A DNA stretch of 64,000 nt from Pseudovibrio sp. M1P-2-3 (GTDB lineage Bacteria; Pseudomonadota; Alphaproteobacteria; Rhizobiales; Stappiaceae): the NCBI RefSeq assembly GCF_031501865.1, contig NZ_JARRCW010000001.1, forward strand, positions 2,935,001 through 2,999,000, given 5' to 3'. Made by a program: the position numbers and the translations under genes. Position 1 is the first letter of the stretch. Every line of letters starts with the position of its first letter. Shown here in pieces: positions 2,917 to 37,551 of the stretch. The notes under the pieces are model-generated. The model was given only the letters and a program-made list of their open reading frames with translations, searched no databases and was not told the DNA's origin.

Positions 2917-2918
2917 CC

Positions 2919-4400: not shown

Positions 4401-4409
4401 GCCTGATAG

Positions 4410-8963: not shown

Positions 8964-8974
8964 GGAAAACGAAT

Positions 8975-11569
8975 ATGACCAGCCTGACAAAACTCGTGAC
9001 CTGTCTTTCTCCTGATCTGAAAAGCGCTCTGGAAAACAGTGTGGGAGAAGCTATGAAACGCAAAGCCGTTTCTGTTGATGCCTCCCACTGGCTCTATCAT
9101 ATTGTTTTCGGACAGGACACGGAGCTAAAAACTTTCCTTGAATCGCAAGGCGTTGACCTTACTGCCCTTCAAAGCGAACTGGAAGGGCAGATGCCCTACG
9201 GATCAGGGGAGCGGGAACGCCAGCCAACTATTTCCGGCTCGGTTGCCAAGCTGATGGAACAGGCGTGGATTTTGGCATCGGTTGAGCTGGGACAGCCTCA
9301 GATCCTGCCGGAAGTATTTATGTTGGCAGCCCACACACCCAATGCACTGGGCGTGCGCTCTGAGCCCCTAAAGGCCTTGAAGCCCGTATCCACAGATGCC
9401 CTACGCGCCTTCGCCCAGTCCAGGGGCGCCAATAACAGTGCCGCTACTCACTCTTCGGGTGTCGCTACTCCTCCTCCCGCCCCCTCACAATCGGGCGGTG
9501 CGCTGGAGCAGTATACTGTCAACCTGACCCAGCTTGCCCGTGACGGGGAACTGGACCCTGTACTTGGCAGAACCGAGGAAATCTCCAAGGCCATTGATGT
9601 GTTACTGCGCAAACGCCAGAATAACCCGATTATGTTAGGCCAACCCGGCGTTGGTAAGACAGCAGTTGTGGAGGGCTTGGCTGAGAAAATTGCAGCTGGA
9701 GAAGTTCCCGATCAGCTAAAAAACGCGGAACTTGTCAGCCTTGACATGGGGCTTTTGCAAGCTGGGGCAAGTGTAAAGGGCGAGTTTGAAGAGCGGCTGA
9801 AGAACGTTATCAAGGAGGTCCAGTCCTCCGAAAAAACCATTATTGTGTTTATTGATGAAGCGCACACCATAATCGGAGCCGGAGGTGCAGAAGGCCAGAA
9901 TGATGCGGCAAACCTTTTAAAGCCAGCACTGGCCCGCGGTGAGTTTCGCACCGTTGCTGCAACTACCTTTGCCGAATACAAAAAGTACTTTGAAAAGGAC
10001 CCTGCTCTTTCACGCCGGTTCCAGGCGATCACCATTGATGAACCGGTGCGGGACGCCGCCATTAATATCTTGCGCGCTGCAGCGGAAAGTTTGAGCAAAC
10101 ACCACGGCGTTTTCGTGCGCGAAGAAGGCATCAAGGCGGCAGTTGATTTATCCATTCGCTACATGCCTGCCCGCCGCCTGCCAGACAAAGCCATCAGCCT
10201 GATTGATACAGCTTGTGCGAGGGTCGCCCTATCACAACATGCAAGGCCCAAGCAGATTGAAATGCTGGAAGAAGATCTGCGTTTTGCCCAATCCGAACTT
10301 GAAAAAAGCCTTGAGGATGCACGGATCTTTGGCAATGAAACCTTTGATGGTACGGATCTTAGCAGCTCAATTCACGAGCGCGAAACAGAGCTTCTAGACC
10401 GCATTTCCAGCTGGAAAAATCAACGCGAGAAAGTCGAGGCACGCTTGAAAGCGGCCCGCGACATGCTGGAGGACAGCGGTGAAAATAGCGAAGAAACAAC
10501 GCCCACACCCCAAGAAATTGAGCCAACCCCAAATAGTGAACAAGAGACCTATGTTCACCCATGGGTAACAGAAGAAACTGTTGCCAATGTTGTCTCTGAC
10601 TGGACAGGCGTTCCTGTATCAAACATTGGCGCCAGTGAGGCTGAACGCCTACTGCATCTGGAAGACACCTTGAAAACACGGGTGATCGGACAGGACAGCG
10701 CCATTGAAGCAATCGCCAAATCTTTAAAGATAGCCCGCGCTGGCCTGACAGACACCCGCAAGCCCATTGGTGTCTTCATGATGTGCGGCCCTTCAGGTGT
10801 GGGAAAAACTGAGACTGCTCTGGCCATTGCCGACCAGTTCTTTGGCGGCGAGGACGCCCTGACCACCATCAACATGACTGAGTTTAAGGAATCCCATAAG
10901 TCCTCCATGCTTCTGGGAGCCGCCGCAGGTTATGTGGGCTATGGCAAAGGCGGCATTTTGACAGAGGCCATTCGCCAGCGCCCCTATCAGGTGCTCCTAC
11001 TGGATGAAATGGAAAAGGCTCACCGGGAAATTCAGGATATTTTCTTCCAAATCTTCGACAAGGGGTGCATCTCGGACAGTGAAGGAAACTTGGTCGACTT
11101 TAGAAACACCATCATCATCATGACTTCCAACGCAGGGGGGGAAGAATTGCGTGAACTCACCGATACACGTGAGATAGACCCCACACCGGAAGAGCTGAAC
11201 GAGCACCTGCGCCCACTGCTGCTGCGCCATTTCAGTCCGGCCTTTATTGGTAGAACAGAGTTGATTGCATACCGGCCACTGAGCGAGGGCGCGAGTATGA
11301 AGCTCACAGAAATCCACCTCAACCGCATTCGCAAACGCATCAAGGCACAGTATGGGGCGGAGTTTAACTGGGAAAAGAGTTTCGTTGATTTTGTCGTGGG
11401 TGCCAACAACGACCCGCTTTCCGGCGGGCGAGCCATTGAGGCGATCATCAACCGGAATTTCCTGCCTAAACTGGCGGAAGAGTGTATCACCCGGGTGATA
11501 CAGGAAAGCCCGCTATCTTCCATCTCGGTCTCGCACAGCGGGAAAGAAGTTGAATTGGAGATGGGGTAG
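8975..11569 (+). CDS. tssH: T6SS sheath-recycling AAA+ ATPase ClpV (TssH)
   Basis: 864 residues with two AAA+ modules. The N-terminal Clp repeat domain (about 1-150) is followed by D1 with Walker A GQPGVGKT (residues 222-229) and Walker B VFIDEAH, then D2 with Walker A GPSGVGKT (605-612) and Walker B LLLDEMEKAH. A coiled-coil insert (about 420-510) lies between the domains. The N-terminal domain and the absence of a long ClpB-type middle domain, plus location, separate it from the ClpB chaperone. ClpV unfolds contracted TssB/TssC sheaths for reuse. Both ATPase sites look intact. Confidence 0.93.
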   Translation: MTSLTKLVTCLSPDLKSALENSVGEAMKRKAVSVDASHWLYHIVFGQDTELKTFLESQGVDLTALQSELEGQMPYGSGERERQPTISGSVAKLMEQAWILASVELGQPQILPEVFMLAAHTPNALGVRSEPLKALKPVSTDALRAFAQSRGANNSAATHSSGVATPPPAPSQSGGALEQYTVNLTQLARDGELDPVLGRTEEISKAIDVLLRKRQNNPIMLGQPGVGKTAVVEGLAEKIAAGEVPDQLKNAELVSLDMGLLQAGASVKGEFEERLKNVIKEVQSSEKTIIVFIDEAHTIIGAGGAEGQNDAANLLKPALARGEFRTVAATTFAEYKKYFEKDPALSRRFQAITIDEPVRDAAINILRAAAESLSKHHGVFVREEGIKAAVDLSIRYMPARRLPDKAISLIDTACARVALSQHARPKQIEMLEEDLRFAQSELEKSLEDARIFGNETFDGTDLSSSIHERETELLDRISSWKNQREKVEARLKAARDMLEDSGENSEETTPTPQEIEPTPNSEQETYVHPWVTEETVANVVSDWTGVPVSNIGASEAERLLHLEDTLKTRVIGQDSAIEAIAKSLKIARAGLTDTRKPIGVFMMCGPSGVGKTETALAIADQFFGGEDALTTINMTEFKESHKSSMLLGAAAGYVGYGKGGILTEAIRQRPYQVLLLDEMEKAHREIQDIFFQIFDKGCISDSEGNLVDFRNTIIIMTSNAGGEELRELTDTREIDPTPEELNEHLRPLLLRHFSPAFIGRTELIAYRPLSEGASMKLTEIHLNRIRKRIKAQYGAEFNWEKSFVDFVVGANNDPLSGGRAIEAIINRNFLPKLAEECITRVIQESPLSSISVSHSGKEVELEMG

Positions 11570-11572
11570 CCT

Positions 11573-12292
11573 ATGGTAGTCAGCTTACTGCGAAACCTGA
11601 CTTTCATGGTGGTCCTATTTACAGGGCCTCAGCTTGCCGGTGCCCAGACACATGGTCTGATACGCCTTGCCACCCAGCAGCTCCCCCCCTACCAGATGGT
11701 TGTAAACGGCCAGTTGCAGGGGGTAGCTATTGAGAGGGTAAAATGCGCACTCAAAGCCACCCGCCGCCCCTTTGAGATCCATATGTCAGACTGGACACAG
11801 GCGCAGCTAGGAACGGAGACGGCGGAATATGAAGGTTTCTTCGTCGGCTCTGCCAACTCCACTCGAGCCCGCTATGCAATCCCGTCCAAGCCAGTCATTT
11901 CCGAGGACTTGGCTTGGTATATGTCACGCCATGCCAACATCAACCCCAATGATCCGGCGGATGCCCTTAAAGCCCGCTATTCGGCCAAGTTCGCCACCAG
12001 CAAATGGCTCAATCTCAAACGGCGCGGTTTCAACGTGGTCAAGAAACCACAGGATGCGCAGTCTTTGCTGAATATGCTGCTTGTGGGAGATATAGACGTT
12101 GCACTGGAGTACGAGCTGATCTTTGAGCACTTCATGGAGGAGCGCAACATCCCACTCGACCGCTTTACCAAAATTAGAAATCGCAGACAGGATTTAAGCG
12201 TACATTTTTCCAAGAAGTTTCTGGCGGCCAATCCTTTATTTCTGGAAGAATTTAATGCCGCATTACCTGTGTGTATCGGGGAGAGCCAATGA
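11573..12292 (+). CDS. Periplasmic solute-binding-like protein inside the T6SS operon
   Basis: 239 residues beginning with a clear Sec signal peptide (hydrophobic LTFMVVLFTG core, likely cleavage after LAGAQ near residue 25). The mature part reads like a small family-3 solute-binding protein (SBP_bac_3): IRLATQQLPPYQMVVNGQLQGVAIERVKCALKA at the start, and DAQSLLNMLLVGDIDVALEYE near the C-terminus. No permease or ATPase gene accompanies it. It starts 3 bases after the clpV stop and its stop overlaps the FHA gene (ATGA), so it is an integral operon member. It could sense a ligand or a cell-wall signal for the T6SS; that is inference. Confidence 0.75.
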   Translation: MVVSLLRNLTFMVVLFTGPQLAGAQTHGLIRLATQQLPPYQMVVNGQLQGVAIERVKCALKATRRPFEIHMSDWTQAQLGTETAEYEGFFVGSANSTRARYAIPSKPVISEDLAWYMSRHANINPNDPADALKARYSAKFATSKWLNLKRRGFNVVKKPQDAQSLLNMLLVGDIDVALEYELIFEHFMEERNIPLDRFTKIRNRRQDLSVHFSKKFLAANPLFLEEFNAALPVCIGESQ

Positions 12293-13170
12293 CCTTGAGT
12301 ATACAGGTTGTTCAGATCCCGGAGGACGCGACTTTGGATCGCCGGGAATTTTATATGCAGAAAAAGAGTTTCAAAATCGGCCGCGATTTCGCCTGCGACA
12401 TATGTTTGGAGGATGAAACAAATACCCTGTCTCGTACCCACCTTGTCATTAGTTATTCTGCAAATGGCTCCTATACGGTTATCGATAACTCCACCAATGG
12501 GGCTGAATTGAATAGTGAAAAACTCCCATCCAAGGAAGTAAAGTTGCTTAGCGACGGCGATGTTTTGAGCTTGGGTGGCTACAAACTACTAGTAGGAATC
12601 ATTGGGCAAATAGAGCAGGAAAACCAGCTGCAACAAGAGGAAGTAGACACTTCCAAGGTAATCCAGTTTAAGGCGGAAACCGATTTTGCATCCACCGCTC
12701 CACTCATTGCAAACGCAGCGGTAGAGCCTGTTGCACTCGTACAGGACCAAGGGTTCTCCCAGGAAGGAATGTCTCTGGATCAGGAGTTGATGTTTGACCC
12801 TTTTGCAGAAGGCCCAGCGCTGCGTGAAGAGCACCAACAGCCTGATACGGAAGAACCTGCACGCATTGAAACATTCAACCTCGTCAATCTGGATCAGCCC
12901 TATGTACCCGCTCCTGAGAACCGTGATTTAGGGTTGCGCGCTTACAGAGAAAACATTTCCGATGCACTGGAGCGCGCTCTGGACCGGTTCTTGAGTGAGA
13001 TCGACCCTGAAGAGCTGCAGGCTGATTACGACGATTACATACCCGCCTTCGTTAGCCGGAAAAAACAGTACTGGCGCATTCACAAGCGTCAGTTTGCAAA
13101 GAAGAAAGCAAGTCATGAATACCACCGGGTTTTCCTTGCTCTCTTTTATGAGGAGATCAGGAAAAGATGA
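12289..13170 (+). CDS. T6SS-associated FHA-domain protein (TagH/VasC-like)
   Basis: 294 residues from the ATG that overlaps the upstream stop. An in-frame GTG 18 bases earlier (12271) would lie inside the previous gene and is less likely. Residues about 20-105 form an FHA domain with the phosphothreonine-binding GR (31-32) and SRTH (48-51) signatures. A variable acidic/glutamine-rich linker follows, then a conserved C-terminal helical block (residues about 215-294, RAYRENISDALERALDRFL) shared with T6SS FHA proteins. Such proteins link threonine phosphorylation to T6SS assembly. No PpkA-type kinase or PppA phosphatase is in the window; they may lie upstream. Confidence 0.85.
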   Translation: MTLSIQVVQIPEDATLDRREFYMQKKSFKIGRDFACDICLEDETNTLSRTHLVISYSANGSYTVIDNSTNGAELNSEKLPSKEVKLLSDGDVLSLGGYKLLVGIIGQIEQENQLQQEEVDTSKVIQFKAETDFASTAPLIANAAVEPVALVQDQGFSQEGMSLDQELMFDPFAEGPALREEHQQPDTEEPARIETFNLVNLDQPYVPAPENRDLGLRAYRENISDALERALDRFLSEIDPEELQADYDDYIPAFVSRKKQYWRIHKRQFAKKKASHEYHRVFLALFYEEIRKR

Positions 13171-13700
13171 GACGTTTCAGTGCAGTATTACTCATGATTT
13201 TGCTGGCAGCGTGTGCGGGAGCCGATGCACCTATCGTGGAAAACAAGAATCTTGTGATTATCGCAGGGCCCAAAATCAATCAGTACAATAACTCGGTAAA
13301 CCCAATTGTTCTTCGCCTTTACCAATTATCCAGCGCCTCCAAGTTCAATTCCGCTGATTTTTGGGAGATCTATAACAACGAAGGCGAAAAGGTTTCAGGG
13401 GCTGTTCTGGACAAGCAAACACTCTCTCCCATTTACCCCAACGAGAAGCGTCTTGTCTCTTTGGAGCTCCTTCCCGAGACACGTTATCTTGGAGTTTTTG
13501 GTGAGTTTTCAGATTTTGAAACCCACAAGTACCTCATCACTGCTCCCATCAGTGCCGAACAGATGGATGACGGTATCACCGTTTATGTAAATGCTTCCGG
13601 TCTTTCCATTCACAATAGAGACAGCACCAAAGAGGTGCCCAGCGAGGAACCGAAGAAGAAAGGACTATTTGCAGGGCTATTTGGAGGGAAAGACGAATGA
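13167..13700 (+). CDS. tssJ: T6SS outer-membrane lipoprotein TssJ
   Basis: 177 residues. It has a short lipoprotein signal peptide with lipobox LLAAC and acylated cysteine C16. The mature part fits the TssJ beta-sandwich: NPIVLRLYQLSSASKFNSADFWEI and the later RYLGVFGEFSDFE stretch, where the family has 'rY.GVvA.yrd'. The C-terminus adds a charged Lys/Glu and Gly/Phe-rich tail of about 30 residues. TssJ anchors the TssLM complex to the outer membrane. It overlaps both the FHA gene and tssK by ATGA junctions. Confidence 0.9.
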   Translation: MRRFSAVLLMILLAACAGADAPIVENKNLVIIAGPKINQYNNSVNPIVLRLYQLSSASKFNSADFWEIYNNEGEKVSGAVLDKQTLSPIYPNEKRLVSLELLPETRYLGVFGEFSDFETHKYLITAPISAEQMDDGITVYVNASGLSIHNRDSTKEVPSEEPKKKGLFAGLFGGKDE

Positions 13701-15016
13701 TTGCTCGAATAGCATGGAGTGAGGGCATGTTCATTGCCCCCCAGCACTTTCAACACGCCGACAAGGCGGTGCGCTCCTACGCCGATGCTCTTGCGCAGCT
13801 TGACGTACGTGGCGGAGATTTCGGTGTAAATACACTGGAGTTGAATCTTGAACTGTTGCCCGTTGGAAAGTTAGCTGTACGCACAGCCTCCGGTGTTTTT
13901 CCTGATCGGCTTTACTTTGAGCTATCCAAAGAGCTCGTGCTTGACATACCTGAGGGAGTGGTCAATGAGACCGTTTACCTCGCTGTTCCTCTTGCAATAT
14001 TTGGTGCCGCTGAATTTGGCGGAACTCAAGGTCATGCGCGCTTCCTATCAAGCAGAAAAGACCTTAGGGACCTTCGCGATGACGATAATGAACAGGTAGA
14101 AACAGAAGTCGCCGAGGCAGGCGTATCCTTAAAGCTGGGAAGTGATGACCGCTCCGGCTACGCCACAATTCCCATTGCCAACATTCAGGAAAAAGCACCT
14201 GATGGGCGGATTGTGCTTGATCCGGCCTATATTCCACGCGCTATCAGCATAGCTGCCTCTCCATTACTGTGCGAGCGGCTGGAGGAGATGATATCCCTTG
14301 CCAGAGTACGGGCGAACAACGCAGCCGGGCGGGTGGCGACTGGCGTTGATGCGCGAAGTGAACTGGGACTACTCAATGAGCGCCTTGAGCTTCAAGTCTT
14401 GAACCGCTGGCTATTTACCCTTCAAAACATTGCCGCTACAAACACCGTCTCACCGCGCGCCCTGTTTGGCGCACTTGGCTGTTTGCTGTCTGAACTGGAA
14501 GCCCTTTCTGCCAGTTCCGTTAATGCAGGGCTGATTTACGATCCAATTCAGATGAGCCGCTGCTTCAATGAACTTTTTGCGCAGCTACGTCAAAAGCTAA
14601 CCCTTGAAAAACCGGCGAGTGTTTTAACTTTTAATTGGAACAGCGAGCTATTTGAAACCCGCCGACTGCTGCGCCTCATCATTCCAGCCTCTACGCTTGC
14701 AAAGAACCTCAGGCTCGTTCTTGCGCTTTCCAGTGAAGAGGGCATGTCTCACCTGCATGAAGTGGGGCCGCTGTCGTGCAAACTGGCCGGCCTGTCTTCA
14801 ATGCCAGAGTTAGTAACACATGATCTACCCGGTATTGATCTGATCCCTCTGGCCACCGCTCCAGCGGAACTGCGCAGCCGCTCTAATGCGGCCTATTTCT
14901 CCATCAATACAAAGAATACGCTTTGGCAAAAGTTTCTGAAAAAGCACGAAGCACTGGCCCTGCACGTTGATGACCGCATCCCCTTAGTAGACGCAACCTT
15001 GTACATGCTGGATTAG
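13697..15016 (+). CDS. tssK: T6SS baseplate-membrane adaptor TssK
   Basis: 439 residues, a standard TssK length. The N-terminus is diagnostic: IAWSEGMFIAPQHFQ. Further conserved parts are LLCERLEEMISLARVRANN in the middle and a C-terminal domain ending in YFSINTKNTLWQKFLKKHEALALHV. TssK links the TssFG wedge with the TssLM cytoplasmic portion. The start overlaps the tssJ stop (ATGA), and tssL begins 8 bases after the stop. Nothing suggests loss of function. Confidence 0.93.
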   Translation: MIARIAWSEGMFIAPQHFQHADKAVRSYADALAQLDVRGGDFGVNTLELNLELLPVGKLAVRTASGVFPDRLYFELSKELVLDIPEGVVNETVYLAVPLAIFGAAEFGGTQGHARFLSSRKDLRDLRDDDNEQVETEVAEAGVSLKLGSDDRSGYATIPIANIQEKAPDGRIVLDPAYIPRAISIAASPLLCERLEEMISLARVRANNAAGRVATGVDARSELGLLNERLELQVLNRWLFTLQNIAATNTVSPRALFGALGCLLSELEALSASSVNAGLIYDPIQMSRCFNELFAQLRQKLTLEKPASVLTFNWNSELFETRRLLRLIIPASTLAKNLRLVLALSSEEGMSHLHEVGPLSCKLAGLSSMPELVTHDLPGIDLIPLATAPAELRSRSNAAYFSINTKNTLWQKFLKKHEALALHVDDRIPLVDATLYMLD

Positions 15017-15024
15017 ACTTTGAT

Positions 15025-15906
15025 ATGACTATGGAAATTGCCGCAACTCTAACTCTTACGCCAACAGGCGTGGAACCTGCCGCAGAACGCTCTGTTGGAA
15101 TGGCAGCTCTAACGCAGTTTTCCAGCGGCAATATCCAAAAGCTGGATAAAGCGCTACGGCGGTATTCAGGTTCTAAAAACAGTCTGATCAATGTTTCTGC
15201 AGACCTGCTCGCATTATGCGGAACAATCAAGAGAATGCAGCCGGAGGATGACCTCAACATTGCCCGTCTGGAGTTGACCCGCGCAATCATTGATCTGAAG
15301 TACAAAGTGGTCCAGTTTGATTACCCTCCCTCTGTTGCCGAGAACTTATGCCTCTTGTTCGCTATCGTTTTGGACGAGTTTATCCTGAGCAGCCCGTGGG
15401 GAACCGAAAGTGGCTGGGAAAGCCGGACATTGGTTGCTGATCTGTTTGGTTTTAGAGATGGGGGGGACCGGTTTTACAACATCACTGACCGGGCACTCAT
15501 GCAACCAAGAGCGCTGAGTGAACTTATTGAAATAATCTATCATTTCCTCAAGCTTGGTTATAAGGGAAAGTTCAGCCGGGACGGTGGATATGAAAGCGAC
15601 CGCTTGATTGACCGGCTCGAAGCCGCATTAAAACTCATTCCCATGGAAGAACCCCCAAAAATACTAGGGCGGCCAGTGGATGAAACTCCAATACCAGTTT
15701 CAGGTACCCCAGCTAAAACCAAATACATATGGGCCGGATGTAGCGCTATGCTCATTCTGGTTTGTAGTTGGACCTATCATGAGTTTGATCACTATGTGGT
15801 GAAAGCCAAGTTCACCGAGTTACGCATAGCCTCCCAAGCGCACAAAGCACAGGACTTCATCTTTTCCAGCGTGACGGGGCAGACGGAAGTGAGGGACCGC
15901 AAATGA
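15025..15906 (+). CDS. tssL: T6SS inner-membrane protein TssL (DotU family)
   Basis: 293 residues. The cytoplasmic DotU domain (about 45-210) is recognisable by YPPSVAENLCLLFAIVLDEFIL, WGTESGWESRTLVADLFG and FLKLGYKGKF, followed by R...L. A single C-terminal membrane segment lies at about residues 232-252, leaving a short periplasmic tail. No OmpA-like peptidoglycan-binding extension is present, so wall anchoring must come from another protein if it occurs. The stop overlaps tssM (ATGA). Confidence 0.92.
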   Translation: MTMEIAATLTLTPTGVEPAAERSVGMAALTQFSSGNIQKLDKALRRYSGSKNSLINVSADLLALCGTIKRMQPEDDLNIARLELTRAIIDLKYKVVQFDYPPSVAENLCLLFAIVLDEFILSSPWGTESGWESRTLVADLFGFRDGGDRFYNITDRALMQPRALSELIEIIYHFLKLGYKGKFSRDGGYESDRLIDRLEAALKLIPMEEPPKILGRPVDETPIPVSGTPAKTKYIWAGCSAMLILVCSWTYHEFDHYVVKAKFTELRIASQAHKAQDFIFSSVTGQTEVRDRK

Positions 15907-18900
15907 ATTGGTTTCGTATAAGCTTCTGGGCATTTGTCGCTGTAATTTCGCTTCAACTTCTCATTGTCTTCATTTTGCTCGGAATAGATATTCTCTCACT
16001 TTTGGGAGCACTCATTTGGGGAGGCATTTTATTAGTTCTGTCTTTGGCAGGCATCACCTTAGCCGTGATCCATCGCCATAGGATTTGGCCTCAAGACCCC
16101 ATTGCAATCGAACAGCGCCACTTGCGCCGCAGTGCACGAAAGCAGTTTTGTCTCGTTCGAGATCGGGCTCGCGCTATTAACCGGCGTAGTTTGTCTGTTC
16201 CCTGGAATCTATTTCTTGCCTGTGAGACTAACCAGCACACAACGGTGATGACTGAATTGGGCTATGTACGCATTGGCGAACAGATATGCCACAAAGGGCT
16301 CTCCGTTACGACGTGGACCTCGCCAACCGCAGTTGCCTACCGTATTGCTTTAGTTCCGGGAGAGGCACTATCCTTTGAATTTTTGAATGTCCTGCTCAAA
16401 TTGCTCTTACGGCATCGGCCAAGTCTTGCGGTGAACGCTGCCTACTTCGAGTATGAGCTTTCCCAGTTAATGTCTCCCAATCCTCTGGAAACAGAGAACC
16501 TATCTACGATCAACCGTATTTTAAATGTGGCATGTAAAACGTTCGGGCTTGATATTCCTTTGCATTTTGCCATTGCTGGCCTTGAGCACTTGCCAGATGT
16601 TCACCGGACGGCGCTTGCAGCCGGTTATCTGCGTGACAAAGGCGTTCTTGGAGGTTTTATTGACCGTAGTGCGCCCAGTTTAAATGCAGGAATTGAAGCT
16701 CTCTTCAAGGATATGGTTCATTCACTGAACGCCACACAGCAAGGTGATTTACAAAAACAGCTGGTGAGCGAGGACTGCACTGCCATTGTCAATGCACCTA
16801 TGCAACTTGCTCTCATTCAGGTGCAGGTGCGCGAACGGCTGGCCCTATTAACGCAGGCCCTGCCTCCAAGGCGGGACCGCCTTAACTTACAAAGTATTGC
16901 CTTTGTTGGGGCTTGCGAAAGTATGCCAATGGTCGACCCACTCTCTCAGGTCTCCAGTCAGCGTTTCTTCCAAACACAAACTGCGTTTTCCCCGCAAGAG
17001 GATTTGAGAGAGAGCGTCACAGCCGAAAGCGCCGCATCCCTTGCGAACTACTATTACTTGGAAAGTAACAGTATTAGACAAAATAACCGTTACAGGGCAC
17101 AACTAAATCTCAATGCAGGCATGCTCTCTGCTTTTTTGGCTTTCTTGGTTATCGCGTTGGCAGGCTTGATCTGGGACAATACACGCCAATATAAGGTCAT
17201 AAATCAACAAACGAGCTCAACTTTTGAGGACTATTACAGTAAAGTTGGAGTGCTTGGAGAAAATTCAGATACCCTTGTAGATCGTGTATTGCTTCTTGCT
17301 CCCTTGCGTAAGGGACTCATTGCCTATGACATACTGGATATGTCATTTTACAGATGGATGCTGCCTAATGGTTCCAAGCGGGAGGTGTTCCAGCAGTTAT
17401 ATAATGACGAGCTTACAGGCGGCCTGCAACTTGCACTGGCCAACTACCTGGAAAAAGACATGTTCGCCTTTAATGCGCTAGAAGACGGGGTGGAGCTGGT
17501 AAACCTTGCATCCCTTGAAGTTCAATTCCATGAGAACCAAAGGGACAATTCCCATCATTTAACCCGTTACTTCAGAGGAGCTCTGGCAGAACAGGGAGAA
17601 GTTTCAGCCGAATTCCAGCTTCAGTTTGCAGCGCAGCTAAGGGATCTTTTTCAACTCAATCAACCTCTCGGCCGCCGCAACGAAGAGCTCCGGCAAGTGG
17701 TCGCCAAAACAATATCAGGGCTGGCAACAGCGGATTTGCTTTATGAAGCGCTCATTCGGCAAGGGCCGTATGCTGAACGGGTAGACTTGCGCCGAACGAT
17801 AGGACCAAGATTCTCGCAGGTATTTAACAGTATTGATAGACCCCAAACCTACATGGTCCCGCGTGCTTTCACTCAGGAAGGATTTGAGCTGCTTTTTGAA
17901 AATGGCGAAATTCCTGATCTTGCAACCCTAATCAGCAGCTATGAAAATTTAATCGGTCCATTGGAAGCAGCCAAGATTACCGCAATAAACAGGCGGGTTT
18001 CCGACAGGTATACAGCCGATTATATCAGTACATGGACTACATTTATCAATGCATTGTCCCTGCGCTCCGCTACCAATTGGTCAGACGCGCAAATACTGAT
18101 GTCGGCACTAACCAACCTAACGGAAAATCCGATTACTGGACTGGGCAACGCCCTGCGCAGCAATACGGACATCACCCCGACAAAGGGCAGCGAAGAAGCC
18201 CCCTCCTCCCCATCCATTTATAGTGCTGAACTGGGCACAGCCCGGAATATTCGAGAGGCCTTCCGGCTGTATTTGGACGCAGTGAAACAGCAGGACCAGA
18301 AACAAAACCAATTTGATTTATTCCTACAATATGCCAGTGATGTCACTGTGTGGTTGCAGGAGACCGCATTAACAGCAGACGGGGCAAGCCGCGCTTTATT
18401 TGATCAGTTTCAAGCCGGAGAACAAGCTAATCCACTCGCCAAAATGCACGCCTTTGCCACCCGTTCAGACCTTGAGCTAATTCGCAGCTTTGGCAGTACA
18501 CTTTCAGAAGGACTTGATAAGGCAGCAATGGGTTTTGTCTATGCCTATATTAACAATCAGTGGCAACAGCAGGTAATAACCCCCTTCGGACAGGAGCTGA
18601 CAGGAACTTTCCCGTTCGATCCCTTAAGCCATGAGGATATGCCTCTTTCTACATTCACCACCTTGTTCATGCCCGATGGTGTATTGGATATTTTTGAGAA
18701 AAGTTACCTGAGCCACTTTAAAAATGTTGATGGGCTTTTCAACCCGCAGGTGTCTTTCATCCCCACTGGCACAGCAGAACTCACACAAGAGGCAATTCAT
18801 ACCTTCACCCAGTTTGGTAAAATACGAGAAAGTCTGTTCGTGGACGGTAAGCCGTTCCTTGCCTTCACTATGCGAACCAGCTTCATGGAAGGGTCGCTGA

Positions 18901-19286
18901 GCCGTCTTGTAATATCCTCAAATGTAACGTTGCATAAGTTCACCCACGGCCCCATTTTATGGAGTGAGCAGACTTGGCCGGTCTCCGGTGTCAACAACAG
19001 CGACATTTCCTTCCGCTTCTATCAGCGCTCCCGTCCACAATATGACAGGGTGTACAGCGGCCCGTGGTCCTGGTTCCGACTCTTTCATGATGGTTATGCA
19101 ACAATCAACCCCACGGCCGGGCTTGCGGAAACATCCTTCACCTCCAAATCCGGAGCACAGGTTAACCTGCAATTCGACAGTAACAAACGCTTCTCACCAT
19201 TCGCACCAGAGTTTTTCTCCGGTGTTCAGGTGGGGGAACCTTTGTTTATTAGGCAAGAGGTGCCGCGGGAAAAATTCAAAATTTAA
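15903..19286 (+). CDS. tssM: T6SS inner-membrane scaffold TssM (IcmF), lacking the P-loop
   Basis: 1127 residues. Two N-terminal membrane segments (within residues 5-60) and a third near residue 405 frame a cytoplasmic domain, followed by a large periplasmic part ending in a VxGxxxFxWP-like region (WSEQTWPVSG...) typical of TssM. The usual Walker A (GxxGxGKT after a conserved PW) should follow P100-W101, but residues 105-114 read LACETNQHTT, so the P-loop is gone. Many TssM proteins bind or hydrolyse ATP, but some family members lack the motif. It is the last gene of the operon and forms the membrane channel with TssL and TssJ. Confidence 0.92.
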   Translation: MNWFRISFWAFVAVISLQLLIVFILLGIDILSLLGALIWGGILLVLSLAGITLAVIHRHRIWPQDPIAIEQRHLRRSARKQFCLVRDRARAINRRSLSVPWNLFLACETNQHTTVMTELGYVRIGEQICHKGLSVTTWTSPTAVAYRIALVPGEALSFEFLNVLLKLLLRHRPSLAVNAAYFEYELSQLMSPNPLETENLSTINRILNVACKTFGLDIPLHFAIAGLEHLPDVHRTALAAGYLRDKGVLGGFIDRSAPSLNAGIEALFKDMVHSLNATQQGDLQKQLVSEDCTAIVNAPMQLALIQVQVRERLALLTQALPPRRDRLNLQSIAFVGACESMPMVDPLSQVSSQRFFQTQTAFSPQEDLRESVTAESAASLANYYYLESNSIRQNNRYRAQLNLNAGMLSAFLAFLVIALAGLIWDNTRQYKVINQQTSSTFEDYYSKVGVLGENSDTLVDRVLLLAPLRKGLIAYDILDMSFYRWMLPNGSKREVFQQLYNDELTGGLQLALANYLEKDMFAFNALEDGVELVNLASLEVQFHENQRDNSHHLTRYFRGALAEQGEVSAEFQLQFAAQLRDLFQLNQPLGRRNEELRQVVAKTISGLATADLLYEALIRQGPYAERVDLRRTIGPRFSQVFNSIDRPQTYMVPRAFTQEGFELLFENGEIPDLATLISSYENLIGPLEAAKITAINRRVSDRYTADYISTWTTFINALSLRSATNWSDAQILMSALTNLTENPITGLGNALRSNTDITPTKGSEEAPSSPSIYSAELGTARNIREAFRLYLDAVKQQDQKQNQFDLFLQYASDVTVWLQETALTADGASRALFDQFQAGEQANPLAKMHAFATRSDLELIRSFGSTLSEGLDKAAMGFVYAYINNQWQQQVITPFGQELTGTFPFDPLSHEDMPLSTFTTLFMPDGVLDIFEKSYLSHFKNVDGLFNPQVSFIPTGTAELTQEAIHTFTQFGKIRESLFVDGKPFLAFTMRTSFMEGSLSRLVISSNVTLHKFTHGPILWSEQTWPVSGVNNSDISFRFYQRSRPQYDRVYSGPWSWFRLFHDGYATINPTAGLAETSFTSKSGAQVNLQFDSNKRFSPFAPEFFSGVQVGEPLFIRQEVPREKFKI

Positions 19287-31717: not shown

Positions 31718-32764
31718 CTACCCATTATACAAAATGTCAAAAACATTATGGGCTTCTAGAAAATCAATCGCATCAGCTTTCCCCATTTGTTGAGAGAGTT
31801 TTGCCTTAAAGAAACCTGGATAAATTGATGTATAAGTGCGGCAGGTATTGCAGGAAACCGCTCCATGACCACAAGTTTTACCCATTGCTTTCTGGCCACC
31901 GATCAACACATGGTGATGGCTAGCAGAATTCCCGGCAACACACCCATGAGGTACAAGCGATACATTGGTATTACCAAAGAAAATCCCAGGCTTCTCAAAT
32001 ACAAATTTAGCAAGAGCCTTAGTGAAGATGACGGTGTCTGGAAAAGTATCGATAGCCTTGCAGATTTCCCTTTCTGCACGAAGATCATCATGTTTACTCA
32101 TGATGAGATTTTCCTGAGGTGATTTACTTTGTATATACTTGTGGCGCCCGACTGTACCAGAACCTATGTAATCCCTGTAGTCCGCTGTGGGGCTGTATAC
32201 CTGAAAGGTCAGATTGAGGTTCTGTTGATGGCAATCGCGAGCTACAATTAAAATATCATCTATGTTTTTCGCATTAACGGTATAATTTATGATGGCTCTT
32301 GGGTCTTGAGATGCAGTACCAAGCGCTTTTTGATAGGAATTCACTCCCCTCCAACTTTGCGTTTGCTCTGGCCCGCCCCAAACAGAGATAAAGATGCGAA
32401 AAGGAATTTCGGGAGCAATTTTCATTATTCCATTTGTATGGATCATACCTTGAGACCAATAACGCGTGGCCACCTTCAGCACGTCCATCTCCAGCGAGGG
32501 CTCAGCCCCACCAAATAAAGGATAAGTTACTCCCCTGCATTTTTCAGAGGAAAAAATTCTCTCATAGGCGTCGAGATCAATAGGAGATGAAGAGCCACTA
32601 TGCCCCCCATCCCGACTATAAAAAAGGCACCCCTCACAAAATAGATTACACCGTGATGATACATCGAAAACAGTAGTAACTCTTGTACGTGTGGTTCTGG
32701 CTCTTAGGAAGATACTCCTGTAGCGCGGATTTTCCCTTACAAGATTGCGGAGTACCACATTCAT
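31718..32764 (-). CDS. Radical SAM protein of unknown substrate
   Basis: 348 residues. The CxxxCxxC iron-sulphur motif is C39-x3-C43-x2-C46 in SSRCNLFCEGC, and a GGAEPS element (residues 85-90) fits the SAM-binding GGE motif. Near the C-terminus four more cysteines (C275, C298, C305, C308; CGHGAVSCNTC) could ligate an auxiliary cluster, as in SPASM/twitch-type maturases. The substrate is unknown. It is divergent, across 210 AT-rich bases, from the TPR/acyltransferase gene at 32975, and the two may share a regulatory region. Codon use looks AT-rich compared with hut, consistent with horizontal transfer. Confidence 0.8.
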   Translation of the reverse strand: MNVVLRNLVRENPRYRSIFLRARTTRTRVTTVFDVSSRCNLFCEGCLFYSRDGGHSGSSSPIDLDAYERIFSSEKCRGVTYPLFGGAEPSLEMDVLKVATRYWSQGMIHTNGIMKIAPEIPFRIFISVWGGPEQTQSWRGVNSYQKALGTASQDPRAIINYTVNAKNIDDILIVARDCHQQNLNLTFQVYSPTADYRDYIGSGTVGRHKYIQSKSPQENLIMSKHDDLRAEREICKAIDTFPDTVIFTKALAKFVFEKPGIFFGNTNVSLVPHGCVAGNSASHHHVLIGGQKAMGKTCGHGAVSCNTCRTYTSIYPGFFKAKLSQQMGKADAIDFLEAHNVFDILYNG

Positions 32765-32974
32765 TTCCTACGGTGGACCTTTCACAAATTAATAAAATAG
32801 TTGCGGTAGATTTGACTTTACGTTTATATTTTTATTTATTGTAATTACTAAATCTACTTAAGAAGTATTTACTCAAACAAATATACCAGTCACTATATTA
32901 TTTTAAATACAAACTATTTCTGTGTTAGTACTTTCACAAAATTATATATTTTGACTTCATTATTGGAGTTATGC

Positions 32975-34756
32975 ATGGAGACGAAGACTTCTTCAGTTCA
33001 TTTTTGCTTACTTCGGGCAAAGTCACTGTATGAAACTGGCTCTATCAAACATGCTTTCGATCTTTATTGTGAAATAGCCAGCCAATATCCTGAGGACTGG
33101 CGTCCCCAAATTGGTATAGTCCGCTGTATGGAGAAAATATCCACTCCTTTGGCCACCCTTAACAAATTGAAAGAGATTTCACCCCGCTTCCCAGAGACGT
33201 TTCAACCCCGCTGGAAAATTGCGCAGACCCTTATTAAACTTGGCCAAACTGAGAATGCTATAAAAACACTAAGGGAACTGACTAGTGACTGGCCAGACTA
33301 CGATCTACCTGCTTGTAAGTTAGTGGAGCTAAAACAAAGAGATACCCCAGATTTTCAGGAATGGGAGTCAGTTAGAAAGAAGTTTCCTGAGTCTATGTGG
33401 GCTCAACTCGGGCTGGCCAATTCCCTTCGAGATCTTGGTTACCCAAAGGAAGCCCTGAATCACTACCTAGAAGCCGAACAACGCTGGCCCAAATCTCTTT
33501 CCATACTAAAGCAACTGGCACGCCTTTTTATTAGTATTGGTGAATTTGGGTTGGCGCTAGAGCGTATTAAATCTAATCTTGAACTGAGACCGAAAAGCCC
33601 AGTAGCTCGACGGCAGTTTTTGTGTTGCCATACTAAGCTTGAAAACTATGAACTGGTACGTAAGTTTGCAGCTAAGTACTTACAGGAGGCGCCCGATGAG
33701 TTATGGCTCAGACTCTTCTATGCAAGGGCCGCCCAAGGATTAGGGTTTAAGCAAAGCGACTGTTTTTTTAGCGAAGCATGGCTTGCAGACAGACCTAATG
33801 ACACAAGGTTCATACAGTTTCATCTTGAAAATTTACGAAAATCTGGCCAGTTTGGAAAAATTAAAAATGTAATCGCAAATACACAAAGGCTCAGTACAGG
33901 CTCTCTCAGTTCCGTATTATTAAAAGATCAGTTAAATGCAATCATGCCCGGTGGAGAATTGTTGACAGGTGACCTTCCTCTACTGCGCAGGATCTGGCGA
34001 ACGAATATCTACGGAAATATGAGTTGGGAGAGCTTTTTAAAAAAACTTGCCTGGCACAGGGCAGCAAATAAGATTGTCAATGAAGCCATTAACATGCGAA
34101 GTGATGCCGCTGAAAAACTGGATAACCTTATTTCTCTTTCTCATCCTAAGCTCATCAGTTCTGCGCAAAACTGTGGATCAGGCGGCCTACTGGTCGGATC
34201 GCATCAGGGCCCGACACTGGCGGCCATGTATTATCTGGAGCGTCATATCAAGCCTTACTACACATTAGAAAACAGATTTAGTCTTAACAGTTTGAGGATG
34301 TCCAAATTTGCTACAAACAAACATACTCAACACTCTATTTTAACGGGACAAAGACCAGTGATGACAATGCGCAGGCTGCTAGAAGCCTTGAAGCAGGGAG
34401 CGTTTGTTGGGTTGGCTGCAGATATTGTGAAAAAGTCGTCATATATTTCTGCCCCTTTATTCTCAGGGGTGGCAAGGATCTCAACCCTAGCACCCAGAGT
34501 AGCCTATCAATATAGAGTCCCAGTATTTTGGTGTCAGCCCTCATGGAAACAGCAGAAAATTGTTATCGAGCTCAGTAAACTCACCAGCCCAAAAGACGGG
34601 GAGGAACTTGAAGACTTTACCCAAAGGTGGTGTAAAATGTTCGCTGGGAAGCTTGAGTACCACCTAAGAAGCAATCCGGGTAACATGGATATGAACCACC
34701 AACTATGGTGGCACGAATGCCTCACACCTCGGCTGGCCTGTCTCGTGAAAGGATAG
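32975..34756 (+). CDS. TPR protein fused to an LpxL/HtrB-like acyltransferase domain
   Basis: 593 residues from ATG 32975 (a TTG 24 bases upstream is a possible alternative; GGAG lies 7 bases before the ATG). Residues about 10-320 are a chain of tetratricopeptide-like helical repeats (e.g. ARSLYETGSIKHAFDLY-like units repeated with WP/FP landmarks). The C-terminal ~200 residues resemble bacterial lipid A/lysophospholipid acyltransferases: GGLLVGSHQGPTLAA, then LLEALKQGAFVGLAADI, APLFSGVARISTLAPRVAYQ and a final LWWHE. The family's HX4(D/E) active site is here HQGPTL (H410), lacking the acidic residue. Function unknown; perhaps transfers or only binds an acyl chain. Confidence 0.7.
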   Translation: METKTSSVHFCLLRAKSLYETGSIKHAFDLYCEIASQYPEDWRPQIGIVRCMEKISTPLATLNKLKEISPRFPETFQPRWKIAQTLIKLGQTENAIKTLRELTSDWPDYDLPACKLVELKQRDTPDFQEWESVRKKFPESMWAQLGLANSLRDLGYPKEALNHYLEAEQRWPKSLSILKQLARLFISIGEFGLALERIKSNLELRPKSPVARRQFLCCHTKLENYELVRKFAAKYLQEAPDELWLRLFYARAAQGLGFKQSDCFFSEAWLADRPNDTRFIQFHLENLRKSGQFGKIKNVIANTQRLSTGSLSSVLLKDQLNAIMPGGELLTGDLPLLRRIWRTNIYGNMSWESFLKKLAWHRAANKIVNEAINMRSDAAEKLDNLISLSHPKLISSAQNCGSGGLLVGSHQGPTLAAMYYLERHIKPYYTLENRFSLNSLRMSKFATNKHTQHSILTGQRPVMTMRRLLEALKQGAFVGLAADIVKKSSYISAPLFSGVARISTLAPRVAYQYRVPVFWCQPSWKQQKIVIELSKLTSPKDGEELEDFTQRWCKMFAGKLEYHLRSNPGNMDMNHQLWWHECLTPRLACLVKG

Positions 34757-34935
34757 ATTGCATTCAATATGGTCCCTGTCTGTCTGAGTATAGTCGCTCT
34801 TTGTCTCTGCCAAGCCCTCGAAGAAAGCTACTCCTTCTCATACCCTCGTGTTCCGACCACCTCTCTAGCATGTTCAAAGGATCTTCCATGCTGACTCAAC
34901 TAATAGTTACGAAGCATGCTCGAAAACTCACTCAT

Positions 34936-35484
34936 TTATGAACGGGACGGAAAAAGTCCAAGCATTGCAATTTCGAAGTTAAGGCCCAGATATGGATTCT
35001 GTATTGTAAAACTCCGACTGCCTCCAGTGTTACCCGTAGAGCTTAGTTGTCCCGATAAAGTAGTGTTGGCTTGCGCCTGATCTATGTACCCTTGCCCTAC
35101 GACAGTTCCGGCTGTTGGTACGGCTGGAACCCTATTGGATGCAGGATCTGAATCACCAAATGTTGTTGACGCTCCAATTTTAACATTTCCATGAGAGTGG
35201 GATGGAAGTTCATTTACCGTCAAAACTCGGTCGTAACTCCCTCCCTTTTCCCCTAGTCCATAGGGAGGAAGACCAGGACCGCTTCCTGGTTGCAAGGGAA
35301 ACCTCCCACGCAGATCCGGTAGGGCAAATGTAGTTCTTCCGTCTCCCCCGTAGATTGTGCCCAGCAAACTAAACAGGGCAGTATTTGAGGCAATTGGAAG
35401 AAGTTGCCCTTCACACAATGCCCATCCACGAACAGCAAATTTTAGTCCAAATAAGGTAATTTGAGAAAGGAAAGGCTCTGCCAT
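34936..35484 (-). CDS. Phage-tail-collar (MdpB-like) domain protein
   Basis: 182 residues. The sequence from FLSQITLFGLKFAVRGWALC through EGQLLPIASNTALFSLLGT to YGGDGRTTFALPDLRGR is the classic bacterial tail-collar module found in 'microcystin-dependent protein' (MdpB) homologues. HSH near residue 97 and a Gly/Ser/Thr-rich C-terminal half complete the domain. No phage genes surround it. In other bacteria such genes occur in small groups with modification enzymes and are thought to encode secreted or surface fibre-like proteins. No signal peptide is seen. An AGAGGG binding site precedes the ATG. Confidence 0.85.
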   Translation of the reverse strand: MAEPFLSQITLFGLKFAVRGWALCEGQLLPIASNTALFSLLGTIYGGDGRTTFALPDLRGRFPLQPGSGPGLPPYGLGEKGGSYDRVLTVNELPSHSHGNVKIGASTTFGDSDPASNRVPAVPTAGTVVGQGYIDQAQANTTLSGQLSSTGNTGGSRSFTIQNPYLGLNFEIAMLGLFPSRS

Positions 35485-35903
35485 CGTCGGCCCTCTTCGG
35501 TTGAGACGTTCTACTTATGTAATTCTAGGTTGATTTATGATTTAAATAAACTATTAAGTGCACCCTCAAATTGAGATTAGTAAATAATTATATATGTAAA
35601 GAAATATTACTGAACTATACGCATTAATTACCCCTAAAATTACAAGGATACACCCATTTGGTGCAATTTACTACAAATTCACTTATTGGGTTAATTCAAG
35701 TATCAATCGAAATCCACGTATGGAGTATCTCACATCTGAATTCTCTTTCTTAAATCGAAGTACTTAGTTCAATCTTATTAAGTACGCAGCTAACCAATGA
35801 ACATGGTTTAAGCAACGTCAATTTTTTGCAGTACCATTATAAATCACTTCGCAGCGTTGCGTTCTACCCTTGAACTATCCACCCAGTATACAAAGGTATT
35901 AAT
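35485..35903. other. AT-rich intergenic region between divergent genes
   Basis: 419 bases, clearly AT-rich, separating the tail-collar gene (minus) from the GNAT gene (plus). It must hold promoters for both. No small ORF with a ribosome-binding site, hairpin terminator or RNA gene was recognised. The base composition suggests foreign origin. Confidence 0.5.
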
Positions 35904-36530
35904 GTGAGTACTGAATTAAACCCCCTTGATGTTTCCATACGGCCAGCGAGAGCTGGTGATGAAGGAATCCTAGAACTCATCCATAGAGATGAGCGGCACT
36001 GGGAGTTTTCTTCCTTGAAAAATTTTGGGCAAGAAGAACTTTATCATAGCGTGCTGTCACAGCAGTACACTGCACAACATAACGTATACTTCAATCAATA
36101 TGATTTGGCGAATTATGGTCTTATTTTGTGGTGTGAAGCCCCTGTCGGGCGCGTGTACCTTGCCGAAGATGAGCATATGTTAAAGGTACTTGACTTGTCA
36201 CTTTTACAAAAATTTCAGCGCAGAGGTATCGGAACGGTTGTCATGAAAGGCATCTGCGCAAAAGCTTCAAAGCTGAAAATTCCTGTCATGCTTCATGTCC
36301 TTAATATGAATAGACCTGCCTATAAATTTTACTACAGGTTTGGATTTGAGCCAGAAACTACAGGGAGGCACCATACGTTGATGAGGTGGTATCAACCAGA
36401 CTATGACGCCTTGTTACGAGGTGAATTCATATCTGCAGCTGTCAAAATCAAACGAATGAATACTTCTGTAACTTCGACACCCTTCAGGCAACAACAGGAG
36501 AGTGATCAATCAATTTCAGATTCCCAATGA
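35904..36530 (+). CDS. GNAT-family N-acetyltransferase
   Basis: 208 residues from GTG 35904 with AAAGG about 7 bases before it. Residues 10-155 form a GNAT fold: SIRPARAGDEGILELIHRDE at the N-terminus, the acetyl-CoA motif QRRGIGTVVMKGI (about 108-120), and NRPAYKFYYRFGFEPE in motif B. The C-terminal ~50 residues are polar and probably disordered. Substrate not predictable. Its place between the tail-collar gene and the DUF6916-like gene suggests it acts on a product of this group, which is inference. Confidence 0.82.
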   Translation: MSTELNPLDVSIRPARAGDEGILELIHRDERHWEFSSLKNFGQEELYHSVLSQQYTAQHNVYFNQYDLANYGLILWCEAPVGRVYLAEDEHMLKVLDLSLLQKFQRRGIGTVVMKGICAKASKLKIPVMLHVLNMNRPAYKFYYRFGFEPETTGRHHTLMRWYQPDYDALLRGEFISAAVKIKRMNTSVTSTPFRQQQESDQSISDSQ

Positions 36531-36602
36531 AAATTGGGACGCATATGACCATGGCCAATCATAGAGATTTTCTAAACAGATATTAAAGATAGGAAAATAC
36601 AG

Positions 36603-36890
36603 ATGAAAGATGACCTTAAGTCTTTGGAATATGCCGATTTTGAAAAGCTGAAGGGCGACATTTTTTTAATTGATGGTGAGAAGGTCCAGCTAAAATTTAT
36701 AGAGAAAGGGCCTCAAACACCAGCAAGATTCCGGGAGCAGTTTATACTTTTGTTTGACTGCCCAGAAGGTTTCGAAGTCAAAGGTAGGATCTCGGAGGTA
36801 CAACACCCAACAATTGGAGTTCATAATCTCCTTGTTACTAAAGTCTTGGAGGGTGGAGATGAATTCAACCTACAAATTATTTTTAACTGA
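36603..36890 (+). CDS. Small DUF6916-like protein
   Basis: 95 residues with a clear binding site (AGATAGGAAA) upstream. The sequence is mostly predicted beta-strand with the pattern F..L.GD.F......VQLKFIEKG, then QFILLFDCPEG and HPTIGVHNLLVTKVLEGGDE, and resembles the short DUF6916 proteins that often accompany tail-collar (MdpB-like) genes. The LFDCPEG/..G..HP.iG.. arrangement is the main support. Function unknown; the co-occurrence suggests a structural or chaperone role for the collar protein. Confidence 0.6.
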   Translation: MKDDLKSLEYADFEKLKGDIFLIDGEKVQLKFIEKGPQTPARFREQFILLFDCPEGFEVKGRISEVQHPTIGVHNLLVTKVLEGGDEFNLQIIFN

Positions 36891-37329
36891 TCGATTTTAA
36901 TGGAGCGGATGCCCCTTTTCCGATATTGCTGGGCAACTAGTCCACCGGTTTCCCTTGCATCAAAATTGCGGTACCCCGAGCATCTCTTCATAAAAACAGT
37001 CCTCAAGGCTCTGATGGAATGGATGCCCCACCCGGCGAGTCTCTGCCATATTAGGCAAGAGGACTGGCAGTGAAGGCTTTTATAATCCAATTCGAAGGCA
37101 TTCGGCCATAGGATATCAATCACTTTTAACGTTCGAGCGACAATAGACAAATATTGAGCCGGAGGATCTCCACTTTTCTTAGGCCACTCCAGTTTACGGC
37201 CTGCGAAGTTCTCTAGGTTTCACTATGCATCATTTTCTCCCCATTTTTACTTCCAGATTCCAAAGTATCAACCATGCACTATCTTTTTGCTCTTGCAATC
37301 TGGCTTGTCTCTAATCATTATGCGCCGCA
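36891..37329. other. Gene-free stretch upstream of the cobalamin riboswitch
   Basis: 439 bases with no convincing gene. A 109-codon frame on the minus strand overlaps the previous gene and has no recognisable domain. The promoter of the B12-uptake operon should lie in the last ~100 bases. Confidence 0.5.
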
Positions 37330-37503
37330 ATGGTTTTCGAGGTCAAAAGCCTCGGAATTAAAAGGGAACACGGTGCAGTTTCACGTTTTGAAACTAACTC
37401 CGTGACTGCCCCCGCAACTGTAGGCGGAGAGCAAAGCTAGATATGCCACTGGGGAACCCGGGAAGGCTGGCCGAGCAATGACCCGTAAGTCAGGAGACCT
37501 GCC
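37330..37503 (+). ncRNA. Cobalamin (AdoCbl) riboswitch
   Basis: The aptamer is recognised by its conserved blocks in order: AAAAGGGAACACGGTG (about 37360-37375), CCGTGACTGCCCCCGCAACTG, GCCACTGGGGAACCCGGGAAGG and the B12-box-like end GTCAGGAGACCTGCC (37489-37503). This element senses coenzyme B12 and usually lowers expression of transport or synthesis genes when B12 is plentiful. It lies in front of the importer genes, 182 bases before the ABC ATPase start and about 48 bases before a 45-codon leader ORF. No T-rich terminator is visible, so control of translation initiation is plausible. Confidence 0.92.
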
Positions 37504-37551
37504 ATTACCTGTTACTTCAACCTGGGCGGGGCGTCCTGGAAAGAGGCCATA

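Follow-up and report, generated by a model that had tools for sequence, protein, structure and literature searches.

A reduced copy of a nine-gene operon in Pseudovibrio combines tail-collar genes with a radical SAM and acyltransferase cassette

Among the phage tail fibres, to which proteins of the tail-collar family (PF07484) are related, gp12 of T4 is known to bind lipopolysaccharide; we take Mdp to be a name in use for tail-collar proteins. O-carbamoyltransferases of the NodU/CmcH type act on sugars and antibiotics. VexE of the Vi antigen pathway acylates a nucleotide sugar and is the closest characterised enzyme in which a TPR superhelix is combined with an LPLAT acyltransferase domain (PMC9597891). 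Here we analyse a stretch of 64,000 nucleotides of Pseudovibrio sp. M1P-2-3 (contig NZ_JARRCW010000001.1, positions 2,935,001 to 2,999,000; the window), in which genes for a radical SAM enzyme, a TPR-LPLAT acyltransferase, a tail-collar protein, a GNAT acetyltransferase and a DUF6916 protein lie together. The original prediction, made from the sequence alone, had seen a group of five unusual families here and had suggested a protein-modification system whose substrate would be the collar protein or a lipid or peptide that it carries. We find that the locus is a reduced and rearranged copy of a nine-gene operon. Our tentative reading, to which we give a little less than an even chance, is a surface system of two modules, a fibre module and a cassette for an acylated small molecule.

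The genome contains seven collar genes and three DUF6916 genes, and their loci are that of the window, a collar triplet with DUF6916 at 3008217-3010329, and a triplet with both DUF6916 and GNAT at about 3.757 Mb. The triplet at 3008217-3010329 (L008 9217-11329) has no GNAT match and is followed downstream by transposase-like genes. The sole other relatives of the window radical SAM enzyme (34% identity) and TPR-acyltransferase (28%) in the genome, at E values up to 0.001, are found at the 3.757 Mb locus. This second copy of the operon contains both modules and is separated from the window locus by about 785 kb. In it the genes follow one another on one strand in the order carbamoyltransferase, TPR-LPLAT, radical SAM, P450, an insertion sequence (IS) element, collars A, B and C, GNAT and DUF6916; the P450 and carbamoyltransferase families were confirmed by Pfam (for the latter Carbam_trans_C and Carbam_trans_N). 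Pseudovibrio exalbescens M63 (L046) carries all nine genes in the same order and on the same strand without interruption, and a 6.6 kb contig of P. exalbescens DSM 16456 (L071) includes a radical SAM frame, P450, three collars, GNAT and DUF6916. Because the radical SAM and TPR-acyltransferase genes have their sole second copies next to collar, GNAT and DUF6916 genes, the grouping is more than a chance one, and in this one lineage the link between cassette and collars is strong. The original prediction had drawn this link from neighbourhood only; it now has behind it the operon of M63, the second locus with its internal IS element and the co-occurrence at genome level described below. A DUF1800 and DUF1501 gene pair lies near the second, full copy, on the opposite strand (L013 1313-3932).

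At the window locus (Table 1) all five frames are open, and the five predicted families are borne out by the frames and by Pfam, the radical SAM enzyme by its motif. The strand order (- + - + +) means that the five genes do not form one operon, and a search with family hidden Markov models (HMMs) found neither P450, carbamoyltransferase nor two further collars at the locus. The AT-rich surroundings noted beforehand are confirmed: GC content is 42.6% between 31700 and 37300 and 49.7% in the whole window, while GC content at third codon positions is 0.34-0.44 for the five genes, 0.60-0.62 for hutU and hutH and 0.51-0.53 for two ABC-transporter genes. The left flank is a hut operon, recognised by eye, whose N-formylglutamate amidohydrolase was confirmed by search; on the right, a cobalamin riboswitch (37314-37520, 127.5 bits) lies upstream of an ABC transporter. 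The window also holds 13 intergenic small frames of 20-57 amino acids and, in its left part (2416-19286), type VI secretion genes (VipA, VipB, a ClpV-like AAA protein and IcmF).

Table 1. Features of the window locus (positions within the window; aa, amino acids)
Feature	Position	Strand	Basis
Radical SAM enzyme, 348 aa	31718..32764	-	motif and family relatives
Divergent AT-rich intergenic stretch between radical SAM and TPR-acyltransferase genes; likely promoter region	32765..32950	.	sequence
TPR and LPLAT acyltransferase (VexE-like), 601 aa from TTG	32951..34756	+	Pfam TPR_14, Lip_A_acyltrans
Phage tail-collar (PF07484) protein, 182 aa; sole collar gene of the locus	34936..35484	-	Pfam Collar
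GNAT acetyltransferase of the collar-module type, 208 aa	35904..36530	+	Pfam Acetyltransf_1
DUF6916 (PF21880) protein, 95 aa	36603..36890	+	Pfam DUF6916

The radical SAM enzyme carries CX3CX2C (C39, C43, C46), and its best Foldseek matches are radical SAM structures. Since its Pfam radical SAM score (15.5 bits) lies below the cut-off of 29.5, the assignment rests on the motif and on its relatives. The extra C-terminal cysteines pointed out in the original prediction proved to be conserved, C298, C305 and C308 being invariant, together with CX3CX2C, in 16 aligned family members; C275, which is aligned with the cysteine of the others in one alignment and shifted in another, is probably a fourth. 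This region, a candidate for an auxiliary cluster of the SPASM/twitch type, was modelled at pLDDT (predicted local distance difference test) below 50. NCBIfam peptide-maturase models scored far under their cut-offs, and the Foldseek matches (viperin, BlsE, EpeE, PqqE and MoaA) were too weak and mixed for a substrate to be read from the fold, an approach that was discarded. Relatives L022, L023 and L033 lie, by eye, beside hydrolase-like or TPR/hydrolase-like proteins, and L021, on a Methylomagnum plasmid, beside a TauD oxygenase, an acyl carrier protein (ACP) and a non-ribosomal peptide synthetase. The subfamily apparently serves several pathways.

The TPR protein matches TPR_14 (2.5e-15) and Lip_A_acyltrans (1.4e-5), both above cut-off, and with a TPR superhelix followed by an LPLAT domain it has the architecture of VexE. 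Translation probably starts at ATG 32975 (593 amino acids, with GGAG six bases upstream) rather than at TTG 32951. The predicted catalytic pair is His418 and Asp491 (counted from TTG), matched to residues of VexE and PatA by position and fold, with no direct VexE alignment; the histidine is present in 14 of 14 aligned sequences, position 491 is D or E in all 14, and position 423 is without an acid. The best NCBIfam match is the VexE model (7e-13, residues 335-588), at 47.6 bits against an equivalog cut-off of 1200, and the protein was accordingly rejected as a VexE proper of the Vi antigen.

The single collar of the window (Pfam Collar, 1.3e-25, 89.5 bits, cut-off 24) falls closest to paralogue B (support 88/80), in a tree where each of the three paralogues of the triplets (A, B, C) forms its own group across L008, L009, L046 and L071. 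The GNAT (Acetyltransf_1, 1e-8) and DUF6916 (2.3e-11) assignments are likewise above cut-off, and no PDB relative of DUF6916 appeared at E up to 1. The original prediction had held that unrelated phylogenies would speak against the link. For two of the families they are not what we find, the window acyltransferase forming a clade with L009 and L046 (96/93) and the window GNAT one with L009, L046 and L071 (100/99); the single clade of collar-linked acyltransferases lends no support to two separate recruitments of that enzyme by collars. They may hold for the radical SAM enzyme. Here L009, L046 and L071 form one clade (100/99) and the window copy, its motifs intact nonetheless, sits on a very long branch (4.4 changes per column), so that its position in the tree is unsure and collars may have recruited this enzyme twice. 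The L071 copy, which has no motif, was left out of one family tree and added as a fragment in the tree used for the approximately unbiased (AU) test.

Collar, DUF6916 and often GNAT constitute a widespread non-viral module. DUF6916 is present in 14 of 385 genomes of the class, own genome included, and its 21 matches outside this genome fall into 17 regions, all of which contain collars and 11 of which contain, by tblastn, a GNAT of the collar type; six of the 17, including three with giant proteins, come from one genus. Genes for asparagine synthase, an HprK-like protein and a sulfotransferase lie beside six of these regions. Such a lasso-peptide-like cassette stands beside collar, GNAT and DUF6916 in L126, L127, L128, L132, L136 and L141, in some cases with PqqD or a transglutaminase-like protein (Transglut_core3), the Pfam confirmation applying to L128, and may be another chemistry module that collar fibres can exchange. 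Six of the 17 regions contain a frame with LEPR..DA, the signature that we took as proxy for giant proteins, although in L140 this frame spans only 180 amino acids. Collar modules beside giant proteins were seen in L129-L131, L134, L142, L174, L179 and L202, with DUF4347 confirmed in L174 and L179 and annotated in L202, and with a peptidase M50/HlyD-type protein in addition in L129. Among named organisms, such modules adjoin long genes in Ruegeria sp. TM1040, Azospirillum brasilense (annotated DUF4347) and on Pontibrevibacter plasmids.

The enzyme cassette was followed by a contig scan with a six-sequence radical SAM alignment, which gave at least 594 pattern matches and at least 371 relatives, of which the best 80 were kept and examined with four from other searches, 84 loci in all. 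Partners were tallied over 54 distinct loci with family HMMs built partly from these same loci; 33 mostly deltaproteobacterial loci (L072-L104) without partner matches were left out, and L034, a duplicate of L022, and L132 and L143, one locus, were counted once. P450 was found at 17 loci, carbamoyltransferase at 6, TPR-LPLAT at 14, MBOAT at 12 (four of them near-identical Janthinobacterium copies) and collars nearby at 5, TPR-LPLAT and MBOAT never occurring at the same locus (0/54). Some loci include methyltransferases (L063, L067) or TauD-type oxygenases (L021, L028, L040 and, in pieces, L048). This exchange of LPLAT for MBOAT suggests O-acylation as a conserved step. In Amphritea pacifica the radical SAM, P450, carbamoyltransferase and TPR-LPLAT genes follow in this order, each touching or overlapping its neighbour, and the nearest called genes are about 90 bases away on both sides. 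The compact cassette leaves no place for a precursor peptide gene, and we set that candidate aside as unlikely, a precursor encoded elsewhere being conceivable. The exchange and the lack of such room together favour a small-molecule or lipid product. In G288, MBOAT and carbamoyltransferase lie on one strand and radical SAM and P450 on the other; at a distance of about 6-7 kb stand DUF6916, three collars, GNAT and a cassette of the lasso-like type.

An absence of co-occurrence in other genomes, the other outcome that the original prediction had named as counting against it, was not observed. Collars are present in 15 of the 21 genomes with radical SAM loci; they occur in 14 of the 16 with cassette partners as against one of the five others, or in 12 of 14 when two genomes known beforehand to have collars beside the cassette are removed, compared with 55 of 385 genomes of the class, own included. 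The grouping is that set when the list was written, and among the five others L026 has a TPR-LPLAT, weak in one search and clear in the HMM tally, and L050 a distant MBOAT. DUF6916 is found in eight of the 16 cassette genomes (14/385 in the class), and the radical SAM profile matches six of the 385, all with collars. Ten regions around collars of other cassette genomes gave no match to radical SAM, P450, TPR-LPLAT, MBOAT or carbamoyltransferase, and the association there is therefore in trans.

That last result is one of several that weigh against a surface system of two modules. Direct contact between collar and cassette genes is confined to a single lineage at genus level (window, L009, L046 and L071), collars lie within the fetched flanks of two of the 84 radical SAM loci, and most collar genomes have no cassette. 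The co-occurrence counts and their Fisher values ignore relatedness and lifestyle; several of the 16 genomes pair as close relatives in the radical SAM tree, not all belong to the background class, and in five of the 14 collar-positive ones the collar is single-copy. A recognisable cassette is present in only two of the six class genomes matched by the radical SAM profile (own and G288); three of the six are members of one genus, where a distant radical SAM has unrelated surroundings (L176), and the gene of G270 has an internal stop. Grouping of the window radical SAM with the remaining collar-linked copies is rejected by the AU test (p 0.005, with a very long branch). The radical SAM frame of DSM 16456 (L071 1-1342) has no N-terminal CX3CX2C and lies behind a transposase-like fragment at the contig end, which suggests a broken or incomplete copy. 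Neither a sugar-nucleotide gene nor an export gene was found at the window locus, and the contact of the product with the fibre is our own proposal.

In M63, glycosyltransferase- and epimerase-like genes follow hutU before the nine-gene operon begins at about 12 kb, and in Stappia indica the collar module and hutU are about 14 kb apart and a giant open frame lies between them; the spot downstream of hutU is, on these sequences, common to the family. The congener G651 has other genes beside hutU, and the five genes are absent from the 19 kb taken there; G651 and G655 align with the window only rightwards of about 37315, that is from the riboswitch (24 kb compared). As the hutU of G651 is on another contig, the congeners provide no clean empty site. 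In agreement with the original prediction, no phage genes were seen in the immediate flanks (hut and ABC-transporter genes). Scans of viral contigs (57 and 30 pattern matches) gave no confirmed relative of DUF6916 or the radical SAM enzyme, and PHROGs matches among the five window proteins were limited to those of the collar, with tail families, and a weak one of the GNAT; flanks and viral-contig scans thus lend no support to a phage or prophage origin. An anti-phage defence system is unsupported by PADLOC, whose models matched none of four window proteins and only weakly (E 0.005), within its repeats, the TPR protein.

In the surface system that we propose, collar, GNAT and DUF6916 would form a short fibre that resembles phage tail fibres but is non-viral, with DUF6916 perhaps as chaperone and GNAT perhaps as acetyltransferase of the fibre. 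The second module, radical SAM and TPR-LPLAT with P450 and a NodU/CmcH-type carbamoyltransferase in the full version, would make a small molecule bearing acyl and carbamoyl groups; an acyl-sugar or glycolipid is the most likely. Like VexE, the TPR-LPLAT would take a fatty acyl group from ACP and attach it to a hydroxyl on a sugar or comparable acceptor, and radical SAM and P450 would alter the same molecule; P450 and carbamoyltransferase, missing at the window locus, could come from the second copy of the operon. The product may serve as membrane anchor, cargo or cognate ligand of the fibre. What the sequences themselves show is the gene content, the conserved operon, the common descent of GNAT and acyltransferase, the retained catalytic residues, the architecture like that of VexE and the co-occurrence at genome level; the chemistry, the product, the order of steps and the role at the fibre are our inference.

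A more direct arrangement would have radical SAM, acyltransferase and GNAT, with P450 and carbamoyltransferase, modify the collar itself after translation, for instance with an acyl membrane anchor. Enzymes and collars do share a same-strand operon, modifying enzymes recur near collars (the lasso-like cassette at 6 of 17 DUF6916 regions) and cassette genomes usually have collars in trans, but the cassette is also found without adjacent collars, no collar was found in two of the 16 cassette genomes, VexE acylates a nucleotide sugar, the peptide-maturase models stay far under cut-off, and the collar alignment, inspected by eye, contains no lineage-specific new cysteine or other obvious modification site. 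We regard it as unlikely. The protein-modification system originally suggested is unsupported as such, because GNAT and DUF6916 are parts of a collar module of general occurrence, also found without these enzymes, and because the cassette, where it stands alone in Amphritea, has no room for a precursor gene and its loci exchange two unrelated types of O-acyltransferase; the alternative in the original wording, a lipid carried by the collar protein, may still hold.

It is rather unlikely, to our minds, that two unrelated modules with no joint function were merely brought together by common transfer into a variable spot downstream of hut. Collar modules about 12-18 kb from hutU in M63 and Stappia indica as well, with other genes between, the AT-rich stretch and an adjacency limited to one lineage and G288 would all fit; such an origin sits badly with the finding that two genomes of the genus keep the nine genes in the same order and on the same strand, with a second copy about 785 kb away that still holds both modules, and with an association at genome level that reaches beyond adjacency. 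Decay of the window locus to an inactive remnant of the operon would account for the missing P450, carbamoyltransferase and two collars, the scrambled order and strands, the radical SAM branch of 4.4 changes per column and the broken-looking copy of DSM 16456; against it, none of the five frames is interrupted, and the cysteines of the radical SAM enzyme and the His/Asp of the acyltransferase are conserved. We consider decay improbable. The surface system of two modules could also be one case of something broader, in which collar fibres are a general secreted platform with exchangeable chemistry cassettes (lasso-like, or radical SAM/P450/O-acyltransferase (LPLAT or MBOAT)/carbamoyltransferase) and carry or recognise the cassette product; we consider this extension doubtful.

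Collar genes, easily mistaken for phage debris, recur here as a non-viral module whose partners are fixed. A functional link would give bacterial collar proteins and DUF6916 a concrete and testable role, would bring in a radical SAM subfamily whose pathway probably concerns lipids or glycolipids, and would place a VexE-like acyltransferase outside capsule loci. A joint description of these enzymes and collars was not found in the literature searched, which covered few subscription journals, and the titles and abstract beginnings consulted mention no link of collars with radical SAM, lasso-like or acyltransferase genes; the term 'tail collar' occurs five times in a paper on a cyanobacterium (PMC11633204). 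The fibre fold and the enzyme families are known, and their combination was not found described; if the platform reading is true, chemically armed or glycolipid-anchored bacterial fibres would be a class likewise not described in the literature searched.

Set against the known systems, the C-terminal domain of the window TPR-LPLAT has the fold of PatA and LpxM, but the matched chains are without the TPR superhelix and are 11-15% identical in structural alignments. VexE shares the N-terminal TPR superhelix and C-terminal LPLAT, a catalytic histidine with a downstream aspartate (66 residues apart in VexE, 73 in the window protein) and an HX4D/E position lacking the acid; it differs in that no recognised genes for a Vi-type polymer or ABC capsule exporter accompany the window locus and in that the partners of the present type of enzyme are radical SAM, P450, carbamoyltransferase and collars. 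The likeness to NodU/CmcH lies in the Carbam_trans_C and Carbam_trans_N matches of the full operon and does not extend to the window locus, which has no such gene. Matches of the collar profile include a long tail fibre of a phage (8kec, 1.1e-8) and chains of T4 gp12 (1ocy, 8.8e-5), with identities to phage tail proteins of up to 38% among the matches listed, whereas the window collar is about 180 amino acids long with no phage genes seen around it, and bacterial collars commonly occur as three paralogues with DUF6916 and often GNAT, the window having a single one. The giant DUF4347 and lasso-like collar loci have the same collar, GNAT and DUF6916 genes as the window; in the lasso-like loci asparagine synthase, HprK-like and sulfotransferase genes stand in place of the radical SAM cassette, and G288 holds both cassettes within about 20 kb.

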